Shown here in pieces: positions 4,595-12,988 of a stretch of DNA of 40,271 nt. The stretch lies in IMG/VR virus record IMGVR_UViG_3300031825_000410, positions 1 to 40,271 of that record. One strand, written 5' to 3'. Every line of letters starts with the position of its first letter. Position 1 is the stretch's first letter. The stretch is from a virus. A program made the position numbers and the translations under genes. The notes under the pieces are model-generated. The model was not told where the DNA came from. It saw only the letters and a list, made by a program, of their open reading frames with translations, and made no database searches.

Positions 4595-4770
4595 CGCCCC
4601 TGCCCGAAGACGATGCCGAAGCCCGCGCCTGGCGCGCGCGGATCCGCCTCGACTACGAGCTCGAGCAGGTCGGCCGCGGACCCCGCGTGCCCTCGCTGCG
4701 CGCGCAGCTGATGGGCAGCGCCGGCCACTGGGCGATCATCATGGCCGGCGCCAAGTGGGGGCGGCGATGA
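4591..4770 (+). CDS. small hypothetical protein, 59 aa
   Basis: 59 aa, bounded on both sides by ATGA overlaps (4591-4594 and 4767-4770). It begins MTPLPEDDAEARAWRARIRL, is charged and helical in its first half, and ends with a short hydrophobic run (HWAIIMAGAKWGRR). No known family is recognised. The double coupling and the codon bias (nearly every third position G or C) argue that it is translated. Its function is unknown; early regulatory or host-takeover roles are typical of this position. Confidence 0.6.
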   Translation: MTPLPEDDAEARAWRARIRLDYELEQVGRGPRVPSLRAQLMGSAGHWAIIMAGAKWGRR

Positions 4771-5414
4771 CTTCGGCGTCGCTGCGCAAATCAAACTGCC
4801 GGCAGTTGTCAACCGATGCGACGCAAATGCCGGTGGCATTGTCAACCGACGCTCTCGCCGAGCTGGATGCACGGCGGCGGACACTGGGCATCTCGCGGAG
4901 GCGGTGGTTGGCTGAAGCCAACATAGACGTGCGCGTCTGGGAGCGTGCCCGGGCCGGCCAATGCGAGCCCCAGCACCGCACCCTCGTCAAACTCTCCCGC
5001 GCCCTCGATCGGATCGCCGCCGGCGGGCCGGCCCCGGCCGCCCCGCCCTCCATGGTCGCGGCCTTCTGGCGGATCGCCGTCGCCTTCTTCGCCCGCGAGC
5101 TGGGCGCCGATCCCGCCCTCGCCCTCGACGATCGCGGCCAGTCGTGCCCGCAGGATCCGGCCTGGCTTTCGGCCAGCCGGGCCCGGCAGCTGGCCTTCTA
5201 CGTCACCCATGTGGAGCTGTCCGTGACGCTCTCGGCGCTGGCGGCCGCCATCGGCACCTCCAAGCAGCGCGTGCACAAGGCGGTGTGTCGCGTCGAGGAC
5301 CTGCGCGACGTGCTCGACCTCGACGTGCTGCTGGATCGCGCGAGCACCTTCCTCTCCGGTCGCACCGTCGCGACCTCAACCGCCGGCACATTCGGGAAAG
5401 GGATCGTGCCATGA
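4767..5414 (+). CDS. HTH protein with DnaA domain IV-like C-terminus
   Basis: 215 aa. Two DNA-binding modules can be read. Residues about 30-80 look like an XRE-type helix-turn-helix (LDARRRTLGISRRRWLAEAN and CEPQHRTLVKLSRALDRI). Residues about 95-195 follow the pattern of DnaA domain IV: an initial helix (MVAAFWRIAVAFFAREL), then SASRARQLAFYVTHVELSVT and LSALAAAIGTSKQRVHKAVC, and RVEDLRDVLDLDVLLD; in DnaA the equivalent helices read the DnaA box. No AAA+ domain is present, so it cannot open DNA as DnaA does. It could mark the phage origin, compete with host DnaA, or act as a repressor. The start at 4767 is set by an ATGA overlap. The first 30 codons contain a pair of palindromes (4794-4840). 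Confidence 0.7.
   Translation: MTSASLRKSNCRQLSTDATQMPVALSTDALAELDARRRTLGISRRRWLAEANIDVRVWERARAGQCEPQHRTLVKLSRALDRIAAGGPAPAAPPSMVAAFWRIAVAFFARELGADPALALDDRGQSCPQDPAWLSASRARQLAFYVTHVELSVTLSALAAAIGTSKQRVHKAVCRVEDLRDVLDLDVLLDRASTFLSGRTVATSTAGTFGKGIVP
4794..4840. promoter_or_regulatory. tandem palindromes within gene start
   Basis: A perfect 14-bp palindrome (AACTGCCGGCAGTT, 4794-4807) is followed 18 bases later by a second dyad, AATGCC-GGT-GGCATT (4826-4840). Each is followed by the same bases, TTGTCAACCGA then T or C, then GC, so this is a degenerate tandem repeat. It lies in codons about 10-30 of the DnaA-IV-like gene and appears in the protein as the repeat LSTDA. On the minus strand both copies read CGGTTGACA. 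A binding site for the encoded protein is a reasonable guess. Confidence 0.45.
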
Positions 5415-6472: not shown

Positions 6473-6744
6473 CCGGAACGCCGCCGGTAGGGCCGGCTCC
6501 CACTCCTTCGCTGCCGACCATCATGTGCGCCCGCTGCGGCCATCGGGTCGAGTTTCAAAGGTGGGAATTCGATCGCGCGTACAACCTGTGGCGGATCGAA
6601 GTCCGGTGCCATGGCCAGTGGGACCGTATGGAGATGCCGGTCGATTTTCTTGCGTCGCTCTCTCTGGCGGAGAGCGCGCAGATCACCCGTGGGACGGGCT
6701 GGGCGTTCCAATGCCAGCCGGAACCGACGGGGCTCCTGCCATGA
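6469..6744 (+). CDS. small Cys-containing phage protein
   Basis: 91 aa. CARCG and a later RCHGQWDR give a possible zinc site (two Cys of a CxxC, then Cys-His), within a layout (CxxCG-x-V-x(n)-W-x-I-x-V-x-CHG-x-x-D-x-x-x-x-P) that recurs in alphaproteobacterial phages. The first 18 residues are Pro-rich and look flexible. It is coupled to both neighbours by ATGA overlaps. No activity can be assigned. Confidence 0.6.
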   Translation: MTGTPPVGPAPTPSLPTIMCARCGHRVEFQRWEFDRAYNLWRIEVRCHGQWDRMEMPVDFLASLSLAESAQITRGTGWAFQCQPEPTGLLP

Positions 6745-7862
6745 CCCGCCCCTCCCCCGCCGACCTCAAGGCCCGCGCCCAGGACCGCCTGGACGATATC
6801 CTCCACCAGCTCGCCCCGGGCGGGAAGCATTCGCGCGGGGTCTACATGGTGTGCAATCCCATGCGGCGGGAGAAGAACCCGAGCTTTGCCGTGTGGACAC
6901 AGGGCGACGCCTGCGGCGCCTTCAAGGACTTTACCGATCCGGACGTGACCAAGGGCGACGTGTTCGGCCTGGTGGCCTACCTCCACGGCCAGCCCGTCGA
7001 CGATTTCGACTTCGCCCGTCGCTGGCTCGAGGACTTCCTCGGCCTCTCCACCATGACCGGCGCCGAGCGGGACGAAGCCCGCCGCGCCCGCGATCGCCGG
7101 CGGGCCGAGGCAGTGGACACCAAGGCGCACAAGGCGCAGTGGGCGGAGCGGCAGGCGCACCGCACCTGGTCCGGCGGCCGCATCATCCTGCCCGGCTCGG
7201 TGCCGTGGCTCTATTTCATGCACCGGGGCATCGATCTGCGCTTCGTCGACACCTATGCCGGCGACCTGCGCTGGGACCGCTGCGAGTATTTCCTCGGCGC
7301 CACCTATGCCGATGAGATCCGCGACGGCCGGCCGTTCCGCCGCCGGGTGCGCCCGGGCCCCACCTTCCCGTGCATCCTCACCCCCCTGCGCGACGCCGCC
7401 GGCAGCCTGAAGGCGCTGCACTATACGTTCCTCGCCCCGGACGGTTCGGACAAGGCGGACGTGAAAAAGCCCAAGCTGATCTGGCCGCAGCAGATCGGCC
7501 TCGTCATGCGCATCGCCAACGGCGAGGGCAACCACGCGCCGGAGGAGGCGGACGGCCTCGGCAAGAGCTGCACCCTGGTGCTCACGGAAGGGCTCGAGGA
7601 CGGGCTCACCGTCGCTTTGGCCAGCCCGGACGTGCGCGTGTGGGGCTGCGCGTCGATCAGCAATTTCGCCCATGCGCCGATCGATCGGCCGTGCGTGTCG
7701 GACGTGCTGATCCACGCGCAGAACGATCACGGAAACCCCGCCGCCCAGGCCACCGTGGCCCGCGCGGAAGCTGCCCTGGCGCGGTTCGGCAAGCCGATCG
7801 CCCGCCTCACCGCCCCCACGGGCAAAGACCTCAACGACACGCTGAGAGGGAAAGATGACTGA
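6741..7862 (+). CDS. TOPRIM-domain primase-like protein
   Basis: 373 aa. The N-terminal third resembles the CHC2-type DNA-binding module of phage primases but without its Cys ligands (VYMVCNPMRREKNPSFAVWT, GACGAFKDF, GDVFGLVAYLHG). The C-terminal third is a TOPRIM fold: LVLTEGLEDGLTVALAS with catalytic Glu283, a following strand VRVWGCASISN, the second acidic motif VLIHAQNDHGN (Asp329), then the closing KPIARLTAPTGKDLNDTL. It should prime phage DNA synthesis or handle replication intermediates together with the ATPase encoded at 9409-11235. Start at 6741 by ATGA overlap. This pairing of TOPRIM protein and SF3/DUF927-like ATPase is a common temperate-phage replication module. Confidence 0.85.
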   Translation: MTRPSPADLKARAQDRLDDILHQLAPGGKHSRGVYMVCNPMRREKNPSFAVWTQGDACGAFKDFTDPDVTKGDVFGLVAYLHGQPVDDFDFARRWLEDFLGLSTMTGAERDEARRARDRRRAEAVDTKAHKAQWAERQAHRTWSGGRIILPGSVPWLYFMHRGIDLRFVDTYAGDLRWDRCEYFLGATYADEIRDGRPFRRRVRPGPTFPCILTPLRDAAGSLKALHYTFLAPDGSDKADVKKPKLIWPQQIGLVMRIANGEGNHAPEEADGLGKSCTLVLTEGLEDGLTVALASPDVRVWGCASISNFAHAPIDRPCVSDVLIHAQNDHGNPAAQATVARAEAALARFGKPIARLTAPTGKDLNDTLRGKDD

Positions 7863-9408: not shown

Positions 9409-11235
9409 ATGCCGGCCGCGAAGGGTAAAGATGGCGTCGCGGCTGCGACCGAGGACGCCCGCAGGGCTGTCCGTCGCAAGCGGCGCGACCATGTGCAGGA
9501 TCCGCTCCTCGGCAAGCCGCGTCTGATCAACGGCGAGGAGATCAATCCCGGCGCCTGGCACCCGGACCTGTGGGGCCTGCCGCCCGACTGTCCCGTCCAG
9601 GTGCTCGGCATGGATGGCGACGTGCTCTACGTCATCGATGCCGCCGGCCAGCTCGCCGAGATCACCGACCATGCCTTCGGCCAGAACAAGGTGCAGCGCC
9701 TGTTCCTGCACCGCGTGGGCTATCTTTATTGGGCCTGGCCCCGCTTCGGCCAGGGCGGCCGCATCTCCGGCTTCGATACGGTGGCGGTGCGCGACGCCTT
9801 CTACAAGGCGGCCGGCCTCAAGGGCCTGTGGTCCGCCGGCGACAAGGTGCGCGGCCTGGGAGGCTGGACCGACAAGGCCGGCAATTTGGTGCTCCATTGC
9901 GGCGAGGACCTGTGGGTGAAAGGCCGCGAGATCGCCACCGGCGATTACGAAGGGCATTTCTATCCCCGCCGGCCGCCCATCCCCCCGCCCTGGTCGAAGG
10001 CGGTCACCGACGAGCAGATGGACGCCACCGAGCTGTGGGCGGCGCTGAAGACCTTCACATGGGAACGGCCGCACGTGGATCCGGTGCTCGTGCTCGGCTG
10101 GATGGCGGCGGCCTATCTCGGCGGTGCCCTGCCGTGGCGCCCCATGCTGTTCGTGGTGGGCGACAGGAGCGTGGGCAAGAGCTCCCTGCAGGCGATCGTC
10201 AAGGGCGTGCTGGGCGACGCGCTGCACAACACCGCCGACACCACGCCCGCCGGCATCTATCAGAAGGTGAAGCAGGACAGCCTGCCGGTGGCCGTCGATG
10301 AGCTCGAGGCCAGCGCCGACAACACACGGGTGCTCGGCGTGGTGCGGCTGGCGCGCCTCGCGGCGTCCGGCGGCGTCATGTTCCGCGGCGGCTCCAACCA
10401 CTCGGGGACCACGTTCACCGCGAAGAACTGTTTTTTCATGTCGGCCATCAATCCCCCGCCCGTGCCGCCGCAGGACTTGTCGCGCATGGCGCTGGTGAAC
10501 CTGCGCCCGCGCGAGGCCAGCCGGGCGGCCGAGCGGCTGCCGACCATCGATGTGGACGTGGTCGGCCGCATGCTGCTGCGGCGCCTGGTGGACGGGTGGC
10601 CGCGCTTCGATGACATCTATCAGGAATACCGGAAGGTGCTCGGCATGGGCGGCCATGATGGCCGCGGGCAGGACACCTACGGCACGCTCCTGGCCTGCGC
10701 CCACCTGGTGCTAGGCGACGATCTCCTCGAGCTCTACGGCCTGCCCACCGACGCGGACGGCCTCGATCGGTGGGCGCAGCTGCTGGCGGCCGACAGCCTG
10801 GCCGAAAAGGAGGATGCCACCGAGAACTGGCGCCGCTGCCTGAGCCACCTGCTCACCTCGCGCGTCGAGGCGTGGCGCAACGGCATCCGCCACACGGTGG
10901 GCCAGCTCATGGACGACCTGACCGCCAACCGCACCGGCCTCGAGCAGGCCAACACCGAGCTCGCCCAGGCCGACCTGCTGGCCATTCCCGCCCATGAGTT
11001 CGTGCGCGGCGCGAGGGGCTATGCGCTGGCCATCCCCAACGCCGGGCCCATGATCGGCCAGATGTTCCGGGGCACGGATTGGGGCGGCGAGGGCGGCACC
11101 GGCGTCTGGTCGGCCGCCCTGCGCCAGGCGCCGGCGGCGATCGTGATCACCGACAAGACGAAGAACAAGCGCCGCATCAACGGCATGCAGCGCCGCTGCA
11201 CCATTGTGATGGTGGGCGAGCTCGACCGGGTCTAG
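9409..11235 (+). CDS. SF3/DUF927-like replication ATPase
   Basis: 608 aa. A P-loop lies mid-protein, VVGDRSVGKSSLQ (Gly251-Ser258), with Walker B-like VAVDELEA (Asp297-Glu298) and a following sensor-like region (NCFFMSAINPPPVPPQDLSR, in which the Asn would be the sensor). The N-terminal 200 residues hold Trp-rich beta segments (WHPDLWGLPPDCPVQVLG, GYLYWAWPRF) and may be the primase-linked or DUF927-like module. It should be the replicative helicase or initiator ATPase working with the TOPRIM protein. The start at 9409 follows GGGGGA. Its TAG stop interlocks with the TAG of the convergent minus-strand gene in one CTAG. Confidence 0.8.
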   Translation: MPAAKGKDGVAAATEDARRAVRRKRRDHVQDPLLGKPRLINGEEINPGAWHPDLWGLPPDCPVQVLGMDGDVLYVIDAAGQLAEITDHAFGQNKVQRLFLHRVGYLYWAWPRFGQGGRISGFDTVAVRDAFYKAAGLKGLWSAGDKVRGLGGWTDKAGNLVLHCGEDLWVKGREIATGDYEGHFYPRRPPIPPPWSKAVTDEQMDATELWAALKTFTWERPHVDPVLVLGWMAAAYLGGALPWRPMLFVVGDRSVGKSSLQAIVKGVLGDALHNTADTTPAGIYQKVKQDSLPVAVDELEASADNTRVLGVVRLARLAASGGVMFRGGSNHSGTTFTAKNCFFMSAINPPPVPPQDLSRMALVNLRPREASRAAERLPTIDVDVVGRMLLRRLVDGWPRFDDIYQEYRKVLGMGGHDGRGQDTYGTLLACAHLVLGDDLLELYGLPTDADGLDRWAQLLAADSLAEKEDATENWRRCLSHLLTSRVEAWRNGIRHTVGQLMDDLTANRTGLEQANTELAQADLLAIPAHEFVRGARGYALAIPNAGPMIGQMFRGTDWGGEGGTGVWSAALRQAPAAIVITDKTKNKRRINGMQRRCTIVMVGELDRV

Positions 11236-11552
11236 GCGGCATCGTCGTCGCTGGCCACCAGGCGCAGCCCAGCGGCCGCCGGCGGCATGTCCGGCGGCCG
11301 CGGCGGCGAGCGCTCCAGGTCAATCAGCATGATCCCGCAAAAGCCCTGGTGCTTGCGCTGCTTCCGCACCTGGGAGGGCCGCGGCCACGGGCAGCCGTAG
11401 GCGATCCGGTCGAGCACCTCCTCGAGGCTGATCTCCGCGCCCCATTTCGCCGCGATGCGCGCCAGCCGGTATTGCCCGCGGCGCCGGCAGAACCGGCAGC
11501 TCACGCGCACCAGGACATAGGGATAATCGATCAGCCTGGGCTCGTCCGTCAT
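11232..11552 (-). CDS. zinc-ribbon phage protein
   Basis: 106 aa on the minus strand, convergent with the helicase gene. It has CRFCRRRGQYRLARIAAKWG, with CxxC typical of a zinc knuckle, and later Cys residues (YGCPWPR, GFCGI), then a Pro-rich, acidic tail. I recognise the overall layout as a recurring Hyphomicrobiales phage protein, though without a function. The start at 11552 lacks a good ribosome site; ATG at 11582 with AGG five bases upstream is the alternative and adds ten residues. Being opposite to both flanking operons it needs its own promoter, presumably in 11553-11680. Confidence 0.65.
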   Translation of the reverse strand: MTDEPRLIDYPYVLVRVSCRFCRRRGQYRLARIAAKWGAEISLEEVLDRIAYGCPWPRPSQVRKQRKHQGFCGIMLIDLERSPPRPPDMPPAAAGLRLVASDDDAA

Positions 11553-11674: not shown

Positions 11675-11742
11675 CTGCCTCGCCCCGGTTCGCGCCTGCG
11701 TTGAACCACACCACCCATCCCAGCCGAACCGGGGCAAGGCAG
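11675..11742. repeat. 18-bp inverted repeat
   Basis: CTGCCTCGCCCCGGTTCG (11675-11692) faces CGAACCGGGGCAAGGCAG (11725-11742), one mismatch, 32-base spacer. It lies in the gene-free stretch 11553-12063, between the minus-strand Zn-ribbon gene and the iteron region. It could be a bidirectional terminator or an operator. A TTGACG (11748-11753) follows and could be a -35 box for late genes, but no good -10 was found. Confidence 0.5.
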
Positions 11743-11803
11743 ACAGTTGACGCGGGCGGGGCGGTGCTACGGCTAGACGGTCGGGGCCCTGGTGGCGGCC
11801 TGA

Positions 11804-12040
11804 GACACCTGCGAGACACCTGAAAAGGGCCGGTGTCCCGCCCAAGCCACTGATAACGCAAGGAAAAGACACTGGGACACCTGAGACACCATCGGGGCTT
11901 CGTAACAGGTGCACGCGCGCGCGTGCATAGCGAGGTGGTGGTGTCTCAAGTGTCTTAAGTGTCTCAACAGGTGAAAACATCAAGGAAGTGAATGAGTTGC
12001 AGCCGAGACACCGGCCCTTTTCAGGTGTCTCGCAGGTGTC
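11804..12040. repeat. 34-bp inverted repeat with GAGACACC iterons
   Basis: Arms 11804-11837 and 12007-12040 are perfect reverse complements over 34 bp; the match continues two more bases inward after one mismatch. Each arm carries an 11-bp tandem, GAGACACCTGC then GAGACACCTGA, or its complement. The 169-base spacer holds more copies: GGGACACC (11874) and GAGACACC (11883) on the left, GGTGTCTC (11940) and two AAGTGTCTn copies (from 11948 and 11957) on the right, so the region is roughly symmetric about an 18-bp palindrome at 11910-11927. It ends 24 bases before the TerS-like start. No convincing gene overlaps it. It may be an origin, a TerS-binding packaging site, or a control site. Confidence 0.9.
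11910..11927. repeat. 18-bp alternating pyrimidine-purine palindrome
   Basis: TGCACGCGCGCGCGTGCA is perfectly self-complementary and alternates pyrimidine and purine at every base, the composition that favours Z-DNA or cruciform extrusion. Its centre (11918.5) is within four bases of the centre of the large inverted repeat (11922). Confidence 0.85.
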
Positions 12041-12063: not shown

Positions 12064-12696
12064 ATGAGCGAGCCGAAGCATGGCGTGGCTGCAGTGGTCG
12101 CCGAGGCGGCAAAAGGGGAGGTGGTGGGCGCGCCGGGGGCGGAAATTCCCGGCGGCGGCGCCCAGGCGGCCCTGCCGCTGCTCGAGGAGCCGTTGGCCGG
12201 CGGCGCCGAGGCCGTCGCGACACCATTGGGCGAGCCGGTGCGGCGGGGGCCGGGTCGGCCGGCCGGTTCCACCAATCGCCTCACCAAGGATATCCGCAAG
12301 CTGATCCTGACGCGCCACGCGCATCCGCTCATCGCCCTGGCCGAGGTCTACAGCATGGATGTGAAGGCGCTCGCGCAGCACCTCGACTGCAAGCCGCTCG
12401 ACGCCCTGAACGTCCAGATCCGCGCGGCGGCGGAGCTGGCGCCCTACCTCGCGGCGAAGCAGGCGGCGGTGGATGATAGCGGCAACGCGGTGCTGCCGGT
12501 GCTCCAGCTGAACTTCAGCGGCGCGGCGCCTGCCGCCCTGGAGGCCTCGGACGGCCGCGGCGCCATCTCCATCCTCGACGTGGCGAAGATCGTGGAAGAT
12601 CAACGGCTTAGCGCCGAGGCGGCGGACGCGTCGCACGGACATGGGTCGCATGAAGAGGCGCAAGTGCTTGATGTCGAAGGCGAAAACGATGATTGA
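12064..12696 (+). CDS. putative terminase small subunit-like protein
   Basis: 210 aa directly upstream of the packaging ATPase. The first 60 residues are Ala/Gly/Pro-rich and probably flexible. The centre has a basic GPGRPAGSTN segment and then LTKDIRKLILTRHAHPLIAL, EVYSMDVKALAQHLDCKPLD and ALNVQIRAAAELAPYLAAKQ, a helical layout seen in phage TerS-like and DNA-packaging proteins that recognise pac or cos DNA. The tail is acidic and His-containing. The start at 12064 is chosen because upstream codons lie within the inverted repeat; the ribosome site is weak. TerS assignment rests on position and pattern rather than on a diagnostic motif. Confidence 0.6.
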   Translation: MSEPKHGVAAVVAEAAKGEVVGAPGAEIPGGGAQAALPLLEEPLAGGAEAVATPLGEPVRRGPGRPAGSTNRLTKDIRKLILTRHAHPLIALAEVYSMDVKALAQHLDCKPLDALNVQIRAAAELAPYLAAKQAAVDDSGNAVLPVLQLNFSGAAPAALEASDGRGAISILDVAKIVEDQRLSAEAADASHGHGSHEEAQVLDVEGENDD

Positions 12697-12988
12697 GCCC
12701 ATGATAGAAAATCACGGTGCCTCGGCCTCGCGCGCGCGACCTGGTGGGAGGCCGTCCCGGTCGCTCCCGGGAGGCGCATCGGCCGCCGCCGGATCGCCGG
12801 CACCCCCCTCCCCCCCTCGCGCGGGGCGCCCGGGCGCGCGCGACCTCCCCCGAAAGCCCCCCCTCCCCTCCCCGCCGGCGAGGTCGTGCTCACACCGATC
12901 CGGATTTGGGGGGCCGCGGAACCAATCTGGCCGCGAAACCGTGGGCGCGGGGGCGCCGGGTCCGGGGTGCAAGGGGATCGGGCGATGA
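12671..12988 (+). CDS. doubtful small open frame before TerL
   Basis: 105 codons filling the 288-base gap between the TerS-like gene and TerL. In its favour, the stop overlaps the TerL ATG as ATGA, the habit of this genome. Against it, the product is low-complexity (Pro, Ser, Arg, Gly), codon third positions are less biased than in neighbours, and it overlaps the previous gene by 26 bases. If it is not a gene, 12697-12984 is a C-rich, G-rich leader without a clear structure or promoter. Confidence 0.25.
   Translation: MSKAKTMIEPMIENHGASASRARPGGRPSRSLPGGASAAAGSPAPPSPPRAGRPGARDLPRKPPLPSPPARSCSHRSGFGGPRNQSGRETVGAGAPGPGCKGIGR

Follow-up and report, generated by a model that had tools for sequence, protein, structure and literature searches.

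The locus and its genes

The window, by which we mean the analysed stretch of DNA over its full length of 40,271 bases, is the whole of viral record IMGVR_UViG_3300031825_000410 (GC 0.68) and represents a podovirus-like temperate phage. Its gene content includes a Head-tail_con portal (PF12236), a Phage_capsid_2 capsid, a repressor, a TOPRIM primase, a phrog_21086 helicase, a TerS-like gene and TerL. At the left end of the record an ORF on the reverse strand (351-2012) resembles, judged by eye, a tyrosine recombinase (integrase), which agrees with a prophage. The protein encoded at 4755-5414, which carried the label DnaA-IV-like, weakly matches the small NCBI family PRK06030 with its C-terminal part, under the cut-off. 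The features around which the analysis revolves are the following:

6741-7862, forward strand: TOPRIM primase (DUF7146 + Toprim_3), the probable replication partner
9409-11235, forward strand: proposed initiator helicase, 608 aa, D5/SF3-like, phrog_21086, whose residues R589 and Q594 co-vary with the iteron
10852-11232, forward strand: C-terminal domain of the helicase (residues 482-608), the proposed iteron-binding domain, with a beta-hairpin (587-590/593-601)
11804-12040, no strand: whole array of 12 iterons in four groups of three, the proposed replication origin
11804-11837, no strand: left outer iteron group (words 11804+, 11815+, 11833-), left arm of a perfect 34-bp inverted repeat
11841-11866, no strand: left gap between groups 1 and 2, GC 0.50
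11868-11889, forward strand: left inner iteron group (words 11868+, 11876+, 11885+), steps of 8 and 9 bp
11893-11937, no strand: centre with an 18-bp palindrome, TGCACGCGCGCGCGTGCA, at 11910-11927; an alternating purine/pyrimidine tract, like in the relatives
11941-11963, reverse strand: right inner iteron group (words 11941-, 11950-, 11959-), 9-bp steps
11968-12003, no strand: right gap between groups 3 and 4, GC 0.44 versus 0.68 for the genome, the candidate DNA-unwinding element
12007-12040, no strand: right outer iteron group (words 12007+, 12025-, 12036-), right arm of the perfect 34-bp inverted repeat
12064-12696, forward strand: TerS-like gene, directly 3' of the array and not its best-supported reader

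The array lies about 570 bp beyond the end of the helicase gene, with an ORF on the reverse strand (11232-11552) in between, and the ATG of the TerS-like gene (12064) is found 24 bp past its end. All 12 sites are intergenic, so that the preliminary description of the region as gene-free is borne out. Its placement of the region after the helicase and just before the TerS-like gene stands for the latter, and needs amendment on the helicase side, where the reverse ORF intervenes.

Anatomy of the array

The outer arms had been described as a perfect inverted repeat, and 11804-11837 is indeed the exact reverse complement of 12007-12040; it extends to 37 nt at 97% (11804-11840 / 12004-12040), and no longer near-perfect inverted repeat is listed for the 40 kb. 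The inner copies of GACACC-type words that had been noted are likewise real and form part of a set of exactly 12 GACAC/GTGTC words in four triplets within 11804-12040, where genome-wide density predicts 0.48. The maximum in 2,000 Markov shuffles was 7 words, and the intergenic word-cluster score amounted to -30.5 versus -13.9 for the best of 300 shuffles. The consensus iteron of the window is TGAGACACC, in which the two variable bases before the GACA core are G and A. The claimed 11-bp and 9-bp tandems were recovered as well, with the 11-bp steps in the outer groups and the 9-bp steps in the inner groups, one inner step being 8 bp. The central palindrome, a CG palindrome, is present where it had been placed. 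The near-symmetry of the whole about this palindrome is good and is inexact, with centres at 11922 (outer arms), 11918.5 (palindrome) and near 11915 (inner groups).

Conservation and layout of the array in relatives

The same array was found at the same place in the viral contigs L004/L163 and L006/L164 and in an Ancylobacter genome (L008), in which the TerS is 53-76% and the helicase 62-79% identical to that of the window. The preliminary description had staked its proposals on finding the repeats again in relatives that share the flanking genes, and in these close relatives the repeats were conserved with all four groups; the iterons are conserved too, where L006 and L008 carry GCGACACC versus GAGACACC in most copies of the window. 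Single-sequence searches recovered few close relatives, and a search of the GenBank phages with the TerS protein gave no match.

When viral contigs were scanned for triple tandem 9-mers with GTGTC at their core, at least 55 sequences, the window among them, had no fewer than six of these words around such a triplet, with both strands represented. Among the matches listed, the linker bases were phage-specific and the neighbouring genes encoded mostly a replicative helicase or primase (VapE, D5/Prim-Pol, window-type, PriCT/RepB, AAA_25), less often TerS, and sometimes RusA, tail or lysis proteins. Since a scan for GTGTC only over-samples one word, it was replaced by a de novo word search downstream of helicases. 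A profile built from eight window-type helicases retrieved 61 homologues, and a significant iteron array was found downstream in 47 of the 59 that had enough sequence, versus 3 of 56 upstream control stretches. Among these homologues the word varies by phage and the layout is constant. The commonest refined layout is 3-3-3-3, with the groups oriented minus, plus, minus and plus and with steps near 9 and 11 in the first group, 45 to the second, 9 and 9 within it, 57 across the centre, 9 and 9 in the third, 45 to the fourth and 12 and 11 within that. In the 45 four-group arrays the gap between groups 3 and 4 has a mean GC of 0.27, which is 0.35 under that of the locus, and the centre holds an alternating purine/pyrimidine run with a median of 17 nt, versus a mean of 6.1 after shuffling. 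The inner groups of the window match the commonest orientation of the family, and its outer groups are of mixed orientation; its right gap is only mildly AT-rich (GC 0.44), where that of most relatives is far more so.

For the VapE-type helicases, an array was present in 32 of 80 loci at the same threshold and 48 of 80 were below it; no array was found near the helicase of the VapE-type helicase phages Mano and FoX3 and of the Streptomyces phage TG1. In one relative (L016, 1668-1984) the left and right gaps of the array share a direct repeat, GCAATGATTTCAG. The Burkholderia phage BcepC6B (NC_005887; L012, 1-110) contains mirrored 9-bp repeats, ACGATAGGG / CCCTATCGT, with an AT-rich centre, between its primase gene and terS, and these are perhaps the same kind of origin.

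Candidate readers of the array

The position of the array allows for two readers. It could be a cosB- or pac-like packaging site for the TerS-like protein, alone or beside an origin function: terS starts 24 bp after it in the window, in the helicase family of the window it is always near terS, and at several unrelated loci GTGTC arrays were found beside terS with no helicase next door. As extra genes separate the helicase from the array in the family of the window, and the array is 600-1200 bp upstream of terL, adjacency alone favours packaging. In cultured phages the linkage with terS is not retained. In the Pseudomonas phages LPPA36 and Haddon a CTGTCCC array follows the helicase and is itself followed by tail-type genes, and the Marinobacter phage PS3 has a GGTCACC array between the helicase and the endolysin; in Jilinvirus-type phages the arrays occur ~2 kb 3' of the primase and ahead of the late activator.

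Because plain adjacency left TerS and helicase undecided, a column test was used, in which 34 non-redundant helicases with a word of the form p1 p2 GACA were compared over 602 columns. Only column 589 (R589 in the window) determines p1 without exception, and only column 594 (Q594 in the window) does so for p2. Ranked by normalised mutual information, column 594 is first of 602 for p2 (0.82; next 0.45), and column 589 is second for p1, yet the sole exception-free column. The best TerS column for p2 reached 0.51, versus 0.82 for helicase column 594. Both residues are located on the predicted C-terminal beta-hairpin in both models. Arg/Lys-G, Gln-A and Glu-C are all usual combinations of residue and contacted base. 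In a tree built from the helicases minus their C-terminal domain, the supported switches were L193 versus L176, L195 versus L181 and L184, and L008 with L164 versus the window and L163; for each base, residue and base switched together in 3 of 3 independent pairs, and with only three pairs per position a sign test is not significant by itself. Among 23 non-redundant VapE-type sequences, a G/A change pairs one-to-one with an R/K column in the C-terminal part; this is supportive only, because these sequences are closely related and four other columns also determine that base. Judged from these sequences, the helicase apparently reads the iterons via two matching residues, 589 and 594.

The proposal of a cosB-like TerS site is thereby not supported as a general role, since the arrays of the cultured phages adjoin the helicase, with tail or lysis genes as the next annotated ones, and the helicase residues are better predictors of the word than any TerS residue. 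A separate packaging candidate also exists in the form of a conserved non-coding block between terS and terL. In the phage of the window the array may conceivably serve packaging as a second role, given that in its own family it is invariably located a short way upstream of the terS-terL pair; overall, we consider a packaging function, alone or beside an origin, very unlikely. The stretch between terS and terL (12697-12984, 288 bp, non-coding) shares conserved blocks with four relatives (ACACCGATC, TTTGGGG and a C-rich run), and is a better candidate for packaging than the array. Other arrays were encountered near terS. In the AT-rich phages L080, L098, L055 and L056, 3+3 GTGTC arrays occur in a divergent intergenic region and adjoin a Terminase_2 terS or an endonuclease-like gene, with no replicative helicase next door. 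L069, L114 and L020 carry, upstream of terS, some ten tandem copies of a 9-bp CGACACCTG-type repeat, all in one direction and unmirrored, and these TerS-side arrays may be another thing.

The array precedes the late (packaging and head) genes, and one could take it for an operator or late-gene control region of a phage regulator (a repressor or late activator). A promoter-like block at about 11737-11772, which is conserved in four relatives, and the Jilinvirus-type array upstream of the late activator gene are in line with such a role. Twelve sites in a fixed layout of four triplets with an AT-rich gap would be unusual for an operator, however, the word follows the helicase residues, and the link to the helicase stays in LPPA36, Haddon and PS3 despite their different flanking genes; we hold control of late genes to be highly improbable. 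Ahead of the array there is an 18-nt inverted repeat (11675-11692 / 11725-11742), the arms of which change together in the relative L004, and the block GACAGTTGACGCGGG within 11675-11772 is conserved in all four relatives and is perhaps a promoter.

An origin could finally have its iterons bound by another initiator, either the DnaA-IV-like protein (4755-5414) or a host protein, with the helicase recruited later. The C-terminal similarity of the 4755-5414 protein to PRK06030, weak and below the cut-off, is what speaks for it. The word changes among phages in step with two helicase residues, and this is not explained by a host initiator; the array can be explained without the DnaA-IV-like protein, and there is very little chance that another initiator is the reader.

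A proposed model for the array as the replication origin of the helicase

Very probably, the array is the replication origin of the helicase. Such an origin for the SF3 helicase module was one of three functions first suggested for the region and is the only one of them to find support; it is now well supported by the conservation of arrays downstream of helicases, by the constant layout with a changing word, by the co-variation and by structural kinship. With respect to the latter, the helicase model aligned best with SCCmec Cch (5dgk; Z 16.0, rmsd 8.6, 429 residues), next with SaPI5 Rep (Z 14.3, rmsd 6.2, 334 residues), and then with MCM proteins and SaPIBov1 Rep (Z 13.6, rmsd 8.3, 315 residues). 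The helicase thus resembles SaPI Rep by predicted structure only, as a search of the PDB with its sequence gave no match. The isolated C-terminal domain had no confident match in the PDB (best VIA, Z 3.2), and given these weak matches we claim no fold name for it.

We infer that the D5/SF3-like helicase (9409-11235) binds the 12 iterons via its C-terminal domain, whose beta-hairpin with R589 and Q594 would read the two variable bases before the GACA core. Twelve equal sites arranged as mirror images are suggestive of a pair of six-subunit helicase rings, which these sites would load facing opposite ways. Strand opening would then take place between groups 3 and 4, where the sequence is relatively AT-rich, the TOPRIM primase would initiate synthesis by priming, and replication would start bidirectionally. 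Counting against this model, in the window, are the reverse ORF between helicase and array, the mild AT-richness of the right gap, the mixed orientations of the outer groups and a GC skew with no clear switch at the array.

It is conceivable, and we put it forward tentatively, that these arrays define a common class of phage origins, with exactly twelve iterons, one per subunit, and two opposed hexamers, in which a two-residue hairpin code sets the identity of the origin. According to this code, residue 589 would be Arg/Lys with G and Thr/Ser with T, and residue 594 would be Gln with A, Glu with C and Arg/Ser/Lys with G. If true, such a code would divide phages into predictable replication-specificity groups. 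To our knowledge, the replication origins of most temperate phages are unmapped, and a recognisable layout beside the helicase would permit origins to be identified in the sequences of many phages and prophages. With natural variants in which residue and base change as pairs, the way self-loading helicases recognise an origin would be open to direct test, and the count of 12 sites constitutes a concrete prediction for the assembly of a double hexamer.

Comparison with known origin and packaging systems

With lambda-type cosB the array shares repeated protein-binding words next to terS, and it differs in that the words track the helicase, not TerS, across phages. With lambda O / ori and the iteron plasmids it has in common iterons plus an AT-rich unwinding region. 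The lambda iterons are inside the initiator gene and the lambda initiator is not a helicase, whereas all 12 sites of the window are outside genes. In the Streptococcus phage Sfi21 an origin reportedly lies downstream of its D5-like gene.

At the origins of SV40 T-antigen and papillomavirus E1, inverted short words round a centre load two oppositely facing helicase hexamers. The inverted short words around a centre are found in the window as well, but T-antigen and E1 bind with their N-terminal domain and their viruses are unrelated to the present phages. SaPI Rep has itself been likened to T-antigen and E1 (PMC7581432).

Of the structures aligned with the helicase model, that of SCCmec Cch scored highest. 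The C-terminal domain of Cch2, taken by itself, is reported to bind in vitro to short iterons that follow the gene for Cch2 (PMC7581432); these are only three AAGTG iterons versus 12 here, and the four-group mirror layout is absent from the description of Cch2 given there.

Further parallels are with the SaPI/PICI elements (SaPIbov1, SaPI5, EcCICFT073). PICI origins, which immediately follow rep on its 3' side, consist of an AT-rich region with a set of iterons on either flank and were plasmid-tested in E. coli (PMC6092414), and the SaPI Rep helicases are reported to recognise iterons directly 3' of their own gene via the C-terminal domain, apparently as two hexamers (PMC7581432). The arrays described here share with these systems: i) iterons just 3' of a self-loading initiator helicase; ii) two iteron sets that flank an AT-rich region, which in this array class are groups 3 and 4; iii) a helicase, the model of which aligns with SaPI5 and SaPIBov1 Rep; iv) a C-terminal domain as reader, putative in the phage of the window; and v) the gene order rep-ori-(other genes)-terS (PMC6092414, PMC7581432). 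They differ in that SaPI/PICI are satellites and the present arrays reside in full-size tailed phages, in having four groups instead of two, 12 sites and an alternating purine/pyrimidine palindromic centre, in their iteron words, and in the TOPRIM primase being a separate gene. We regard the array as a variant of the SaPI/PICI-type origin, one that would be bound by the helicase and active in replication.
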